DNA from: Deltaproteobacteria bacterium
GTDB taxonomy: Bacteria > Desulfobacterota > Deferrisomatia > Deferrisomatales > BM512
Direction of reading: 5' to 3'
Assembly (NCBI GenBank): GCA_002869015.1
Contig: PKTT01000020.1
Coordinates: forward strand, 1 to 40,451
DNA length: 40,451 bases
Shown one piece after another: positions 34,320 to 40,430 of this stretch; position 1 is the first letter of the stretch, and each line of letters begins with the position of its first letter. Position numbers and translations under genes: made by a program. Below the pieces are notes generated by a model that searched no databases, was not told the DNA's origin, and saw only the letters and a list, made by a program, of their open reading frames with translations.

Positions 34320-35348
34320 TCATAGGCTATTTTCGTTTTTTTCATCAAATATGATCTCGGCTCGCAAGTGGTAGGGCACTCCTAGAAGGTAATCAATATA
34401 TGTTAATCGCATGATTGCTAAGGCGGCATAGATAAGGGGGTTTAGCTCCCTTTCTTGGGTAAGGTACTTAACCTCAGCGGCTGAGCGGAGAGGATTAAAC
34501 CATATCTTGTAGCTCAAGCCCATATGCCGACATAGCATCGTAAGGGACTTCTTTGTGAAGAGATTAATGTGCCCTGGAAATGTTGGAGGCTTTTTGTTGC
34601 CTCGGATAAAATCCTGTAGCTTGTATCTGGCTTTTAGCAGCTTCTCATTTGGGACTTCAAGCAGAATTTTGGAGCCAGGGGGCGATATATCCATAAGCTC
34701 TTTGATCAGCTTTGCTGGATAAGCAATGTGCTCCAAGACATTATCCATAAAAAATAATATTCTTTTGCCCTTTTGTGACAATTCCTCTACCAGAACCGGT
34801 AACACTTCAGCTGCAGAACCCTCAATTACAGATAGCCCTCTTTTTCTCAAAAATGAGGCAAAGACCTTGTTGGGTTCAATTATGTGGTAACCAACAGCAG
34901 GTTTTGCCTCTCTCACTATTGATGCGACCAGGCCGAGACCGGCTCCAAGCTCCACAATCTCCATTCCGTCTTCAAGGTTTTTCACAAGCCAATTGGCTTT
35001 TTCTCCTGCAACCGGCATGAAGAGATCAAGGCTTTTTTCATAATTCAGGTAGGTGCTCTCAGTGTCCTCTTTTTTAACTTCAACTTCAGAAGTATAAGGA
35101 CTCAGAGCGCCCCCACTGCATGAAGGGCATTTTACCCACTCCAAATGTTTCCAAACTATATATGGTTTTGCCGACTGAGGGCTTTCGCAAATGGGGCAGT
35201 TAGTGGGAGAGTAATCTGTTGCCAAGGTTTTTATAAGCTCCGAAGAGTCATGTTTTAGGTTTGTATTAATGTGCGAATGGAATTGGCAAAATAATGTTTC
35301 ATAGTATAGCTTTGTGGCTGCTCTTATTTTGCCTGTGAGCTTGTGCAA
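34320..35348 (-). CDS. zinc-ribbon class I SAM methyltransferase
   Basis: The 342-residue protein has an N-terminal zinc ribbon (CPICESPQ near residue 51 and CPSCSG near 77) and a class I methyltransferase domain of the Methyltransf_23 type (about 110-250). Motif I is MEIVELGAGLGLVASIV, with FFMDNVLEHIAYPAKLI and LLEVPNEKLL further on. Proteins with this arrangement often methylate sugars or other cell-surface precursors. The start is uncertain: TTG 35348 has no clear ribosome binding site. It is divergent from the UbiA-type gene (56 bases), suggesting common control with the glycosylation cluster. Confidence 0.78.
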   Translation of the reverse strand: MHKLTGKIRAATKLYYETLFCQFHSHINTNLKHDSSELIKTLATDYSPTNCPICESPQSAKPYIVWKHLEWVKCPSCSGGALSPYTSEVEVKKEDTESTYLNYEKSLDLFMPVAGEKANWLVKNLEDGMEIVELGAGLGLVASIVREAKPAVGYHIIEPNKVFASFLRKRGLSVIEGSAAEVLPVLVEELSQKGKRILFFMDNVLEHIAYPAKLIKELMDISPPGSKILLEVPNEKLLKARYKLQDFIRGNKKPPTFPGHINLFTKKSLTMLCRHMGLSYKIWFNPLRSAAEVKYLTQERELNPLIYAALAIMRLTYIDYLLGVPYHLRAEIIFDEKNENSL

Positions 35349-35404
35349 GTGTTATTATGATTTTAACCTGAAAACAGTAAATAACGCCATCCAGACAAGT
35401 TGCC

Positions 35405-36307
35405 ATGCCTAAAAAACTTTTTTCAATTGTGGCAGTCTTAAAATTTCTCCGGCCACATCATTGGGCAAAAAATGTCCTCCTTGCGTTGCCTTTACTGGCC
35501 TCGCATAGATTTGACCTCAGGTCTTTGGAAGATACGTTTTCAGCGATAATAGCATTTTCCTTGGCTGCTTCCGCGGGTTACATAGTAAATGACATTGCAG
35601 ACGTCAAAGCGGATCAGAAACACCATGAAAAACGCAACAGGCTTCTAGCTGCTGGAGGAATCTCCATAGCAAATGCCGCTCTGCTGGCTTCATTTTTGTG
35701 GGCTGTCTCTATAGCATTGTCGATATCGTTATTGAATGTGCCTTTTACGGGATTGATAATTATATATTCTCTGCTTAGTCTTTTTTATTCTCTGTGGATT
35801 AAGCGGCTTCTTCTTCTGGACATTTTGGCACTATCAGCCCTCTACTGCATCAGGATAGTCGCAGGAGCGATTGCTATCGATGTCGAATTATCCAACTGGC
35901 TCTTGGCCTTTGCTTTATTCTTTTTCAATAGCTTAGTCTTTTTAAAACGTTATGTAGAAGTTAAGTATGCCATTGAGGTTTCCAATGATTCCCTTCTGAG
36001 CAACCGGAGAGCCTATGAAGCCGTTGACCTTGGTGTTTTGATATCTGCGGGCCTCTCCTCTGGCTACCTGTCAGTGCTTGTTATTTGTCTCTACATAAAT
36101 ACCGACCGCATAAACAGTTTATACTCTAAACCTGAAGCCATATGGATAATCGGATTCATTATTTTCTACTGGGTGACCAGGATTTGGCTATTGGCTGCAA
36201 GAGACAGGGTTGAGCAAGATCCTGTTTTGTTTACCCTTAAAGACCCAGCTAGTTGGCTCATCCTATCCTTGGTATCGGTGCTCTTTTCGGTGGGAATATG
36301 GCTGTAG
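35405..36307 (+). CDS. UbiA-family prenyltransferase, decaprenyl-phosphate phosphoribosyltransferase-like
   Basis: A 300-residue polytopic membrane protein of the UbiA superfamily. The first Asp motif is NDIADVKADQKHHEKRNR (about residues 62-79), and the later DILALSALYCIRIVAGAIA and SLVFLKRYVE segments match the phosphoribosyl-polyprenyl phosphate branch better than quinone prenyltransferases. That branch transfers phosphoribose from PRPP to polyprenyl phosphate to make a lipid sugar donor. Downstream genes for glycosyltransferases and a flippase agree with this. The exact donor is not proven. It overlaps the GT9 gene by ten bases. Confidence 0.82.
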   Translation: MPKKLFSIVAVLKFLRPHHWAKNVLLALPLLASHRFDLRSLEDTFSAIIAFSLAASAGYIVNDIADVKADQKHHEKRNRLLAAGGISIANAALLASFLWAVSIALSISLLNVPFTGLIIIYSLLSLFYSLWIKRLLLLDILALSALYCIRIVAGAIAIDVELSNWLLAFALFFFNSLVFLKRYVEVKYAIEVSNDSLLSNRRAYEAVDLGVLISAGLSSGYLSVLVICLYINTDRINSLYSKPEAIWIIGFIIFYWVTRIWLLAARDRVEQDPVLFTLKDPASWLILSLVSVLFSVGIWL

Positions 36308-37440
36308 TCAAAAAGTCTCTTCCCTTTGTCCTGCCTATATCGAGGATAATTAAACCATTCAAGAGATTTGACAGGATTACAGGCCCCCTGCTAAGCCGCT
36401 TAATGAAGCGCAATGCCTCCTCAAAGCTTCTTGGTTCAGATGAAATAGGCTCAATACTGGTTATACGACCAGGTGGAATAGGGGACGCGGTGCTCACTTT
36501 GCCGATGATGAATTCTTTGGGTAACTATTTCCCCAAAGCAACAATAGACGTACTCGCAGAGCGGAGAAATGCCGGCGTTTACAGAGCCGTTGAACCTGGG
36601 CCTGCTGTTTACATGTATGATGTAGACCCGCTTGTAACATTCAAAACACTAAAAGCGAAGCAATATGACCTGATTATAGACACGGAGCAGTTTCACTACC
36701 TCTCCACTATATATGCAAATCTCTTAAAACCGAGAAGCCTTATAGCTTTTGATACCGCTGGCCGAGGTAGCTTGGCAACCCATGTGGTTTCTTATTCCGA
36801 TGTTAAATATGAAGCACAATCATTTCTAGATTTGGCCGCTGTCTATTGCCGTTGGGGGGGACTTTTTGATGAAGAAAGACCATTTCTTTTCCCGCCCTCT
36901 GAATCTTTGGCTTTGGCGGAGGAGTTGTTTTGTATTTTTGATAAAAAACCTGTTGTCGCTCTGGCCCCAAGCGCAGGAGCCCTAAATAGGATTTGGGCAT
37001 TAGAGAAGTTTGAAGAGTTAGCTGTTTGGCTCTTTGGCAAAGGTTATTGCCTGTGTTTGGTAGGTGGGGCTGATTCTTTAGAGGCTGGAGCGCGCATAGC
37101 CTCACTGGGTGAAGGGAAAAACATTCTAGACCTTTGCGGTAAGGCCAGCCTAATTGAGACGGCCGCGGCGCTCTCTCTTTGCTCTGCATGTGTTAGCTCT
37201 GATACGGGAGTGTTGCATTTAAGCTATGCAGTCGGAAGCAAGGTAGTCGGGCTTTTCGGTAGTGGCTTATCTGTTAAGTGGGGTCCTAGAGGGACTCGTG
37301 CAAGGGTAGTATCGGCGGGGCTTGATTGTAGCCCGTGCACAAGAGGTTCGATTACTCCACAATGTAAAAATGGATTCAAGTGCATGGATGATATAAGCGT
37401 TGAAAGTGTTATAGCTGCCCTTGAGGAGTTGATTAGTTAA
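36298..37440 (+). CDS. glycosyltransferase family 9 (heptosyltransferase-like)
   Basis: A 380-residue GT-B-fold protein of family 9. Visible motifs are ILVIRPGGIGDAVLTLPM (about 50-67), the middle VALAPSAGALNRIWALEKF (about 221-239), and the C-terminal donor site with SSDTGVLHLSYAVGSKVVGLFG (split around residues 299-320). The family transfers ADP-heptose to lipopolysaccharide core or other sugars to cell-surface glycans. ATG 36298, with GGTGGGA before it, is chosen over an upstream in-frame codon. The TAA overlaps the next ATG (TAATG). Confidence 0.88.
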   Translation: MAVVKKSLPFVLPISRIIKPFKRFDRITGPLLSRLMKRNASSKLLGSDEIGSILVIRPGGIGDAVLTLPMMNSLGNYFPKATIDVLAERRNAGVYRAVEPGPAVYMYDVDPLVTFKTLKAKQYDLIIDTEQFHYLSTIYANLLKPRSLIAFDTAGRGSLATHVVSYSDVKYEAQSFLDLAAVYCRWGGLFDEERPFLFPPSESLALAEELFCIFDKKPVVALAPSAGALNRIWALEKFEELAVWLFGKGYCLCLVGGADSLEAGARIASLGEGKNILDLCGKASLIETAAALSLCSACVSSDTGVLHLSYAVGSKVVGLFGSGLSVKWGPRGTRARVVSAGLDCSPCTRGSITPQCKNGFKCMDDISVESVIAALEELIS

Positions 37441-39182
37441 TGTTTGAAGTCGGCAAAATGCGAGTGGAATTAAAAGATACCTCTCCTTTATGGGCCTTGT
37501 TCCCGGTTTTGGCGGCTGTCCTATTTAGTATCACTCTTTTGAAAGCGGGGCTTGTCTGGGATGACATAATATTTGAGTCCCGTCAGCTTCCATATTTTAA
37601 AACAATATCAGATGCATTTATTGCTCCAGATGGAGTTGAGAGCTTAACGTCTTTTTACTTCCGCCCGGTGGTTCTGCTCAGCTATATGCTCGACCAGTGG
37701 CTTGCCTCAAGTGATGGTTTTATCCCTGCCGCCATGGCTCACGGGGCAAATGTCGCCTACCACGTCATATCGACTTTTCTCCTCTACTGGTTGGCGTCTT
37801 TGCTTTTCCGTGGAAGCACCTATAGAGGGTTGGCAGCGCTGGTTGCTACCCTTATCTTCGCCTTACACCCCATACATGCTGAAACCGTGATGAATATCTC
37901 AGGCAGATCAGATGGGCTTGCGACTATGTTTTTCCTGGCTGCCCTAGTAGCGGCAATATTATGGCGAGACAAGGGCAAATGGCTGGCTGCCATCGCAACT
38001 ATAATCTTTATTTTTTTGTCATTGCTGGCAAAAGAGATTGGCATTTCCGCTCTCTTTGTTATCCCTGTTCTCTTATATTTTTCACCATATGGAGATTGTG
38101 TCCCCGAGAAGCCTCTGAGACGGCTGCTCATATTAATGGCCCTTATATGTTTGGCAGTGGCTTTGTATTTTGCAATACGAATGGGTTTTGGATTTAACTT
38201 AGGTGCAGAGAGTTCATTCTCTTTCGGCGAAAAGGTAATTCGGCTGGTGGGGGCTCTTGGATACTATTTGAGAAAGAGCATCTTTGTTTGGCCGCAAAGC
38301 CACTTTATGCCCAATATTCCTTTTAGCTGGGGTGACATTGCTGCGCTTGTCATAACTCCTGTTTTGCTCTTTTTTATGCTGCTGAAAAAGGAACACAGGG
38401 CGACTGGCCTTATCTGCTGTGCCATCTTTGCCTTGGGCCTTGCGCCATCCCTTCTTGTCGCGATTAAACCTCTTGCGGCAACACCTGTTGCAGAACGATA
38501 TCTATATCTGCCATCAGTAGGCGTTTGCTTGCTAATTGGCTACTTTGCTTCGAGGTTTTGGGAAATAGGCTCTCTGCGAATCGCCACGCTGGTGGTGGTA
38601 GCACTCCTCACGGCTGTATATGGCTATTCCTACTACGAGCGCACTCAGGTCTGGCATTCAAATCTAAGTTTTTGGCAAGACATTGAGCGTAATCCACAAA
38701 TGGCTAATAACAGAATGTTTTTAAATAATCTTGCCGAGGCCTACCTGACTGACGGGCAGCGGATAAAAGCCCTTACTTATTATGAACGTATGCTTACGCC
38801 TCAAGTTCAAAAAACCCCCTTTGAAACTGAGATGATCAAGTACAGCATAGGTATAGTGCATGTGGAAATCGCTGAAGAGAAATATGATGAAAATAAGTAT
38901 GCAGAAGCCTCAGCGCAGTTAAAAGAAGCCTTGCCGCTGCTTGAAGGTGCAGCTGTACGGTTGCCCTCTACGCCCATAGTACACAAGGGCTATGCCCTTG
39001 GCCTGCTGCTAAGGGGAAAGATTAGCCTTTCAGCTGAAAGGAGGCTTGATGAGAATACCCTCTACCAGGCAAGAAAACATTGCCTTATAGCGCTTAGCAT
39101 GGATAGAGAGAGCCAGCTGGCGAGAGATACACTTGCGGAGATTGACGCCATTTTGGCTCGTTATGGTGCTACAGCGAGATGA
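37440..39182 (+). CDS. TMTC-like membrane glycosyltransferase with C-terminal TPR region
   Basis: A 580-residue protein with about ten membrane helices (roughly residues 10-400), then a soluble helical C-terminal third. The GT-C-type acidic motif GLVWDDIIFE is in the first loop (about residue 39), and ALHPIHAETVMNISGRSDG (about 140-158) matches the TMTC/DUF1736 family of O-mannosyltransferase-like enzymes. The C-terminal part (WQDIERNPQMANNRMFLNNL onwards) looks like TPR helices. Such enzymes use polyprenyl-phosphate sugars at the outer face of the inner membrane. The function is inferred from family and context. Confidence 0.78.
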   Translation: MFEVGKMRVELKDTSPLWALFPVLAAVLFSITLLKAGLVWDDIIFESRQLPYFKTISDAFIAPDGVESLTSFYFRPVVLLSYMLDQWLASSDGFIPAAMAHGANVAYHVISTFLLYWLASLLFRGSTYRGLAALVATLIFALHPIHAETVMNISGRSDGLATMFFLAALVAAILWRDKGKWLAAIATIIFIFLSLLAKEIGISALFVIPVLLYFSPYGDCVPEKPLRRLLILMALICLAVALYFAIRMGFGFNLGAESSFSFGEKVIRLVGALGYYLRKSIFVWPQSHFMPNIPFSWGDIAALVITPVLLFFMLLKKEHRATGLICCAIFALGLAPSLLVAIKPLAATPVAERYLYLPSVGVCLLIGYFASRFWEIGSLRIATLVVVALLTAVYGYSYYERTQVWHSNLSFWQDIERNPQMANNRMFLNNLAEAYLTDGQRIKALTYYERMLTPQVQKTPFETEMIKYSIGIVHVEIAEEKYDENKYAEASAQLKEALPLLEGAAVRLPSTPIVHKGYALGLLLRGKISLSAERRLDENTLYQARKHCLIALSMDRESQLARDTLAEIDAILARYGATAR

Positions 39183-40087
39183 ATAAGCGGGTTAAGCTGC
39201 TCCTTAGGGTCGCGGTAAGTATCGGGCTACTTTATTTTCTGCTCGCCAGCATTGATACCGGCAACATTGGAGCTATTTTGAGTAGCGCCTCCTTGCCGGG
39301 GCTTATACTTTCCATGCTTGTGGTCGCTATAATAATCGTCATATCGGGGTGGCGTTGGCACAACCTTACCACTAAAGGGTTGACCCTGAAGTTGGCGGTC
39401 GACTACACCTTCATTGGTTGCTACTTCAATAATTTCCTGCCGACAAATTTTGGTGGGGACGGTGTTAAAATTCACCTCCTGGCAAAGCGTTTGTCAAGCT
39501 TGTCCGCCGCCGCTATTTCTGTTTTTTGGGACAGATACACGGGGCTCGCAGGGCTAGTGCTGGCGGGACTTATCGGCTATCTGGCGGCCTTCAATAAATT
39601 GAGAGATACCCCGCTGACCTGGGTCTATCCATCCGCATTGGCCGCCCTGCTTTTTAGCGCTGTGCTTTTAAAAAGTCGCTGGATAAAAAGGTCGGTCTCC
39701 TTTCTTGCAAAGAGGGAAATATCCACTTCGGGGAATCCCGGCGCTAAAGAAATATTCAAGGCGTTGGCCGCCTCATTGGTAATTCAACTCCTCGGCTCCC
39801 TCTACATTTACATGCTGGCTTTGTCGCTCGGGATTGAAGTCGGCTTTATAGAGTGTCTGGTCTTCTGCCCATTGGCCAATCTGGCAGCGGTGCTGCCACT
39901 TTCGATAAGTGGGCTAGGCATCCGCGAGGGCGCGATGGTCTATCTCTTTGGTCTTACCGGAGTCCCGAAAGAGGAGGCGCTGGTGCTCTCTCTTGCAGGA
40001 TTCGCCGCCATGCTTGTCGTCAGCTTGTGGGGTGGGGTGCTATACGTGAAAAGAGATGGTGAAACAAAGGCAAAAAAGACTACTTAA
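39179..40087 (+). CDS. lysylphosphatidylglycerol synthase TM-region/flippase-like membrane protein
   Basis: A 302-residue protein of the UPF0104 / LPG_synthase_TM family with about seven to eight membrane helices. Typical segments are GWRWHNLTTKGL near residue 58, FNNFLPTNFGGDGVKIHLLA (about 82-101), DRYTGLAGLVLAG, and LPLSISGLGIREGAMVYLFG (about 239-258). Members are found beside glycosyltransferases and may flip or transport lipid-linked intermediates. The start overlaps the preceding gene by ATGA; it ends the cluster. Confidence 0.85.
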   Translation: MNKRVKLLLRVAVSIGLLYFLLASIDTGNIGAILSSASLPGLILSMLVVAIIIVISGWRWHNLTTKGLTLKLAVDYTFIGCYFNNFLPTNFGGDGVKIHLLAKRLSSLSAAAISVFWDRYTGLAGLVLAGLIGYLAAFNKLRDTPLTWVYPSALAALLFSAVLLKSRWIKRSVSFLAKREISTSGNPGAKEIFKALAASLVIQLLGSLYIYMLALSLGIEVGFIECLVFCPLANLAAVLPLSISGLGIREGAMVYLFGLTGVPKEEALVLSLAGFAAMLVVSLWGGVLYVKRDGETKAKKTT

Positions 40088-40353: not shown

Positions 40354-40430
40354 TGGGGTGAGTGATGGGAATTGAACCCACGACAACCGGAGCCACAATC
40401 CGGTGCTCTACCAACTGAGCTACACCCACC
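40354..40430 (-). tRNA. tRNA-His (anticodon GTG)
   Basis: A 77-nt cloverleaf on the minus strand including the extra 5' G (position -1) and C73, the identity pair of tRNA-His, and an encoded CCA (40354-40356). The anticodon loop is TTGTGGC between stems CCGGA and TCCGG. The acceptor stem has one G-U pair. A terminator follows; the promoter is largely outside the window. Confidence 0.95.

Follow-up and report, generated by a model that had tools for sequence, protein, structure and literature searches.

In Citrobacter youngae O1/O2, a three-component pentofuranose system consists of a polyprenyl-phosphate phosphoribosyltransferase (PPPRS) fused to a PRP phosphatase domain, a MATE-type flippase and a GT136 transferase of the GT-C class, and the PRP-UbiA architecture has been proven in its ORF15 (Kelly et al. 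2024, PMC11127046). The mycobacterial DPA pathway (Rv3806c, Rv3807c, DprE1/E2, Emb/Aft) and the eukaryotic TMTC1-4 O-mannosyltransferases and PMTs are further described systems to which the locus reported here compares. This locus occupies positions 34320–40087 of a 40,451-nt window, the whole stretch of DNA analyzed (contig PKTT01000020.1 of Deltaproteobacteria bacterium assembly GCA_002869015.1, hereafter G000; all coordinates follow its numbering), where genes for a UbiA-superfamily protein, a GT9 transferase, a GT-C enzyme and a PF03706 membrane protein form an operon. The operon probably makes and uses lipid-linked ribose and would represent a variant of the 2024 pentofuranose pathway. 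The strongest evidence, new here and beyond the view of the first-pass annotation of this DNA, is a sharply delimited GT9 subfamily whose members nearly always accompany PPPRS in genomes of the phylum. The features of the locus are as follows.

34320–35225, minus strand: class I S-adenosylmethionine methyltransferase carrying a zinc ribbon (CPIC...CxxC) at its N-terminus and transcribed away from the operon (PF13489, Methyltransf_23, 43 bits)
35226–35404: divergent intergenic region, presumed promoter, 179 bases between the methyltransferase and UbiA starts
35405–36307, plus strand: UbiA-superfamily protein, predicted PPPRS, without a HAD/PRP domain (NCBIfam, PDB match, residues, fold, tree)
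36298 (ATG)–37440, plus strand: GT9 protein with the ADP-heptose transferase fold, of the PPPRS-associated subfamily (PF01075, 95 bits)
37440–39182, plus strand: predicted GT-C polyprenyl-phosphate-sugar transferase with a helical (TPR-like) C-terminal part (AlphaFold2 model, TMTC-type motifs)
39179–40087, plus strand: candidate flippase, a membrane protein of family PF03706 (LPG_synthase_TM / YbhN-type; full-domain Pfam match of 129 bits; TIGR00374)
40354–40429, minus strand: tRNA-His, which bounds the cluster (ARAGORN)

In the proposed scheme, the UbiA protein would join phosphoribosyl pyrophosphate (PRPP) to polyprenyl phosphate to give polyprenyl-phosphate-ribose-5-phosphate; homology, residues and fold all speak strongly for this step. 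An unlinked phosphatase would strip the 5-phosphate to leave polyprenyl-phosphate-ribofuranose, presumably with no conversion to arabinofuranose, DprE1 being absent from the assembly. The PF03706 protein would move the lipid to the periplasmic side, and the GT-C enzyme, whose fold and motifs support this role, would pass ribofuranose to a putative periplasmic or cell-surface acceptor. The cytoplasmic GT9 most likely uses ADP-heptose to build a glycan, lipid-linked or membrane-bound, for decoration by the ribose; alternatively, it may extend the lipid. The first-pass annotation had suggested that a lipid-linked pentose is made, flipped and transferred to protein or lipid; its core is supported through the PPPRS and the GT-C enzyme, whereas flipping is presumed, and the acceptor may be either protein or glycan.

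The locus resembles the Citrobacter system in its PPPRS from the branch of PRP-fused enzymes, its membrane protein proposed as a flippase and its GT-C acceptor enzyme, and it shares with the ribose version, which has neither DprE1 nor DprE2, the lack of DprE1. Unlike that system, it has no PRP phosphatase domain, a PF03706 protein stands in place of the MATE-type flippase (a different family), the GT-C enzyme is TMTC/Pmt-like with a helical repeat C-terminus, and there is a dedicated GT9 gene; no GT9 is mentioned in PMC11127046. With the mycobacterial DPA pathway it shares the fold and PRPP-site residues of the first enzyme but differs in lacking DprE1, in having another GT-C enzyme and in the additional GT9. 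In Desulfobacterota the pentofuranose pathway would thus exist in a second and widespread version, marked by the additional GT9 and in many cases by a TMTC-like enzyme; traces of this version appear to extend to Omnitrophota, Syntrophobacterales and further groups.

The UbiA protein groups with the phosphoribosyl-polyprenyl branch, where the first-pass annotation had placed it. Among NCBIfam models it scores 321 bits with PRK08238 (a HAD-UbiA model, matched over the UbiA half only) and 132 bits with decaprenyl-phosphate phosphoribosyltransferase, and its only sequence matches in the PDB are 8j8j and 8j8k, both Rv3806c. Rv3806c contacts PRPP and Mg through R22, K28, Y70, N73, D77, K87, R90, Q135, Y138 and K143 (PMC10994848). 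Nine of these ten residues of the Mycobacterium tuberculosis enzyme are retained in the window protein; the tenth, Q135, is replaced by Ser at a position that is variable among 76 relatives. The AlphaFold2 model (pLDDT 83) superposes on 8j8j with a TM-score of 0.84 and a root-mean-square deviation of 2.5, against TM-scores of 0.60–0.70 for true prenyltransferases. A tree of 76 rows places the proteins of the window and the sister species within a 15-row branch (100/100) composed mostly of PRP-type HAD phosphatase fusions, although the window protein, unlike its closest relatives, carries no HAD/PRP phosphatase domain. A single-sequence scan of the genome contigs with the UbiA protein returned no matches. 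The idea of a conventional quinone or heme prenyltransferase in an incidental gene order, as its membership of the UbiA superfamily might suggest, has a negligible chance of being right: the heme and quinone enzyme models reach at most 41 bits, and the PRPP-site residues and the conserved gene association contradict it. Such a grouping, which the first-pass annotation had named as evidence against its proposal, is ruled out by the NCBIfam scores, PDB matches and fold; sequence, residues, fold and tree all place the protein with DPPR synthase.

The GT9 subfamily is closely tied to PPPRS. The window GT9 matches WaaC/WaaF-type structures, and its subfamily conserves the motifs RPGGIGDA, D-S/T-G-x-x-H and C-x-P-C together with the N-terminal segment K22/D25/G29. 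Searched against 20 genomes, it recovers subfamily members at 36–42% identity (E 1e-51 to 1e-74), and the next-best GT9s fall to ~30% identity and ~1e-27. Among 395 genomes of the phylum, the subfamily occurs in 18 and a PPPRS-type UbiA in 74, with both present in 17 (hypergeometric P 1.3e-12 by genome, within one phylum and with kinship ignored); counted by genus, 14 of the 15 with the subfamily have PPPRS compared to 57 of 246 overall (P 4e-9). The exception is G053, in which the GT9 gene lies next to an ATP-binding cassette (ABC) exporter trio on a contig of 9 kb. The 17 genomes coincide with exactly three UbiA groups, namely the window genus, families f40/f41 and an 11-member Geobacter/Desulfobulbus-type group. 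Because the window UbiA sits in a different deep branch, the pairing appears to have formed, or the UbiA to have been replaced, at least twice.

HldE (ADP-heptose kinase) is encoded in the assembly, so the ADP-heptose donor is probably made; as it adjoins ordinary GT9 genes on another contig, the cluster GT9 is an additional one. It is conceivable, though rather unlikely, that the GT9 acts on the lipid-linked ribose itself, and that PPPRS and GT9 together form a polyprenyl-phosphate disaccharide (e.g., heptosyl-ribose) moved whole by the oligosaccharyltransferase (OST)/Pmt-like GT-C enzyme. This would explain why the GT9 tracks PPPRS despite changes of UbiA lineage or GT-C family, and a polyprenyl-monophosphate pathway would then deliver an oligosaccharide instead of a single sugar.

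Neighborhoods in wider relatives show how the set recurs. Absence of the gene set from relatives would have spoken against the first-pass proposal; the set is found again in the sister species, in family f41 and in Omnitrophota. L129 and L143 (family f41, which is not the family of the window) have the GT-C, GT9 and UbiA genes side by side, while GT-C and UbiA overlap in L132, L134, L135 and L141, with the GT9 further along or on a separate contig. The UbiA-GT9 pair accompanies a DUF2079 GT-C in Omnitrophota (L274 by Pfam, L271 by resemblance) and recurs in a Syntrophobacterales metagenome-assembled genome (MAG; L241), and an Acidobacteria MAG (L235) pairs the GT9 with a TMTC-like GT-C. Across these loci the GT-C enzyme varies, and the GT9 and PPPRS persist. 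In three loci (L135:2850-8765, L264:6238-11011, L242:5662-11005), a pilin-like open reading frame (ORF) and a three-part ABC exporter are followed by GT-C and UbiA or by the GT9 subfamily, and in two (L316:6139-11197, L134:170-4147) the GT9-subfamily gene borders an apparent pilD/pilM/pilN type IV pilus operon. Geobacter-type relatives carry GT-C, UbiA and GT9 subfamily genes in an ABC-exporter locus beside a pilin, whereas the window cluster has no exporter or pilin nearby. These Geobacter-type loci may correspond to the Geobacter sulfurreducens xap locus for ABC-dependent exopolysaccharide (xapD/GSU1501). The association would tie such loci to the pilus and exopolysaccharide genes of electroactive Geobacter relatives, in whose biofilms surface glycans play a part.

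The fold and motifs of the GT-C protein support a role as a polyprenyl-phosphate-sugar transferase. No Pfam domain in the 580-residue ORF exceeds the cut-off. Its AlphaFold2 model (pLDDT 75.5) matches Pmt4, OST catalytic subunits, PglB, DPY19 and ArnT (probability 1.00) at modest TM-scores of 0.30–0.45, and Pmt4 is the best PDB match. The TMTC motifs DD, RP, KE and ERxxY (PMC7801869) correspond to D41D42, R75P76, K198E199 and E352-R353-x-x-Y356 (ERYLY). A C-terminal TPR_2 match falls below cut-off in the window protein (E 0.0015) and exceeds it in relatives, and TPR-repeat proteins are among the matches listed in a PDB sequence search with the GT-C profile. The protein therefore shares with TMTC1-4 and the PMTs the GT-C fold and these motifs, a TPR C-terminus being present in its relatives, but the PF08409 (DUF1736) loop of true TMTCs is undetected at E up to 10, and the expected donor is a pentose rather than mannose. 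The earlier label "TMTC-like" holds for the fold and motifs and fails for that loop. We know of no substrates of bacterial TMTC-like enzymes, and the lipid proposed here would be a first testable donor for them. A related genome, G002, from the same family as the window organism, has 26 matches to this GT-C in 2.9 Mb, an expansion whose purpose is unexplained.

The similarity to Pmt4, the best fold match, and the TMTC motifs (PMC7801869) also make protein O-glycosylation possible, though somewhat doubtful; here, the GT-C enzyme would attach a pentose, or a unit containing one, to a pilin or a secreted protein. Arabinofuranose has been proposed on a type IV pilin of P. aeruginosa. The GT-C/UbiA pair of the Geobacter-type locus L135 lies just 3' of two ORFs, one for an N-methyl pilin and one for a small secreted protein, and the GT9 stands at the edge of apparent prepilin peptidase, pilM and pilN genes in L134 and L316. 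However, no pilin or evident secreted acceptor lies near the cluster within the window, and related loci, with their ABC exporters for polysaccharide and numerous sugar transferases, point to glycans.

Ribofuranose, rather than arabinose, is the likely sugar. No DprE1 was found in G000 or in the sister species of the same genus (G001), where the best match reached 5e-5 at 24% identity, while the same search in relatives possessing DprE1 gave 7e-99 and 1e-81; ribofuranose is therefore the simplest product. Of the DprE1 and DprE2 pair expected of a DPA pathway, DprE1 is lacking and DprE2 was not searched genome-wide. The first-pass annotation had seen neither DprE partners nor a phosphatase at the locus and had suggested that they may lie elsewhere; extension of the search to the whole assembly found no DprE1 or PRP-type HAD phosphatase. 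The unusual sugar it offered instead is not needed, because the Citrobacter system has ribofuranose without epimerization. An arabinofuranose donor, made in trans by epimerases unlike DprE1/DprE2 or lost in gaps of the 95% complete assembly, seems improbable. Of the 76 UbiA loci that make up the tree, about 21 adjoin a DprE1 relative, some of them within the window's UbiA branch, but DprE1 is nearby in none of the 17 UbiA loci that group by their GT9 or TMTC-type neighbor, and only three loci (L154, L110, L113) have both DprE1 and such a neighbor.

The dephosphorylation step has a further alternative, in which the GT-C enzyme moves ribose with its 5-phosphate still attached, producing a charged surface modification. 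The window UbiA is nested among PRP-fused enzymes yet has no phosphatase domain, and the remaining GT9-linked UbiAs likewise lack PRP. We consider phosphoribose transfer very unlikely, however, since unlinked phosphatases serve the mycobacterial and Pseudomonas enzymes, which have no PRP either (PMC11127046). Generic phosphatases could serve; a SurE nucleotidase on the same contig (26540–27310) could in principle perform the step. No PRP-type HAD phosphatase relative was detected in G000 or G001, a result confined to that type of phosphatase.

Several observations weigh against the lipid-linked ribose reading. No phosphatase is linked to the cluster, and the PRP domain typical of its closest relatives is absent from the UbiA protein, so the lipid need not carry free ribose. 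The undetected PF08409 loop counts here too, as does the absence of a PF03706 gene near UbiA in most relatives. The PF03706 protein matches its family (TIGR00374 "flippase-like"), as the first-pass annotation had recognized; its flipping activity is something that we infer, and a PDB sequence search with it gave no matches. UbiA lies within ~10 kb in only 13 of 54 named GT9-subfamily loci (1 of 26 for other GT9s), a figure lowered in part by short contigs and by gene distances of 10–30 kb in some Geobacter types. Additionally, the hypergeometric test takes no account of ancestry common to the genomes.

The sister species has the same genes in the same order behind the same upstream flank. One contig end of G001 carries the methyltransferase, UbiA and the start of the GT9 gene behind the upstream genes seen in the window; the contig breaks inside GT9, and a 3.3 kb contig holds only the remaining GT9, the GT-C and the PF03706 gene. 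Because gene set, order and upstream flank recur, the cluster is not mere chance. The G001 GT-C gene (L038, C43, ~1909-1921) is read as two overlapping frames, residues 5–318 and 315–580, through either an assembly error or a genuine frameshift. In G003, from the same family but another genus, DUF1847 and tRNA-His, which lie on either side of the cluster in the window, are 3.8 kb apart in the same order with no cluster between them; insertion beside tRNA-His and loss from G003 both fit. The cluster has a G+C content of 0.46 compared to 0.53 in the rest of the window. Third-position G+C is 0.41–0.46 in four of its five genes and 0.59 in the PF03706 gene, against ~0.53–0.69 in most other genes checked, with a PilZ exception at 0.43. 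No cluster protein matched PHROG, and no phage origin is indicated.

Consecutive operon genes overlap by 10 bases (UbiA/GT9), 1 base (GT9/GT-C) and 4 bases (GT-C/PF03706, ATGA), and re-reading of the ORF coordinates bore out the five ORFs and these overlaps as first annotated. The divergent zinc-ribbon methyltransferase was confirmed by Pfam, with its start moved from 35348 to TTG 35225 because the sister-species protein begins MKYSPETCPIC in the alignment. It was rejected as a core component, as its association with the cluster was not found outside the genus. Promoter and terminator scans, including the promoter-like matches in 35226–35404, gave results no better than chance.

The PF03706 protein was likewise rejected as a constant partner, being seen only in the window genus and genus g17. 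In g17, UbiA and PF03706 genes stand in a row with a GT9 gene from another subfamily (L015:5664-9004, L125:8294-11338, L127) and no GT-C nearby, which appears to be a separate, independent PPPRS-flippase-GT9 combination. In family f10 (L096:6573-9277, L107:1036-3749), a ~403-residue multi-pass protein precedes PRP-UbiA and may be a further type of GT-C partner. One soluble protein (shared segment TTILKDNISWH.PFLSANTTPWQ) lies near PRP-UbiA in two families (L099:10317-11405, L100:442-1473) and is a possible unrecognized partner.

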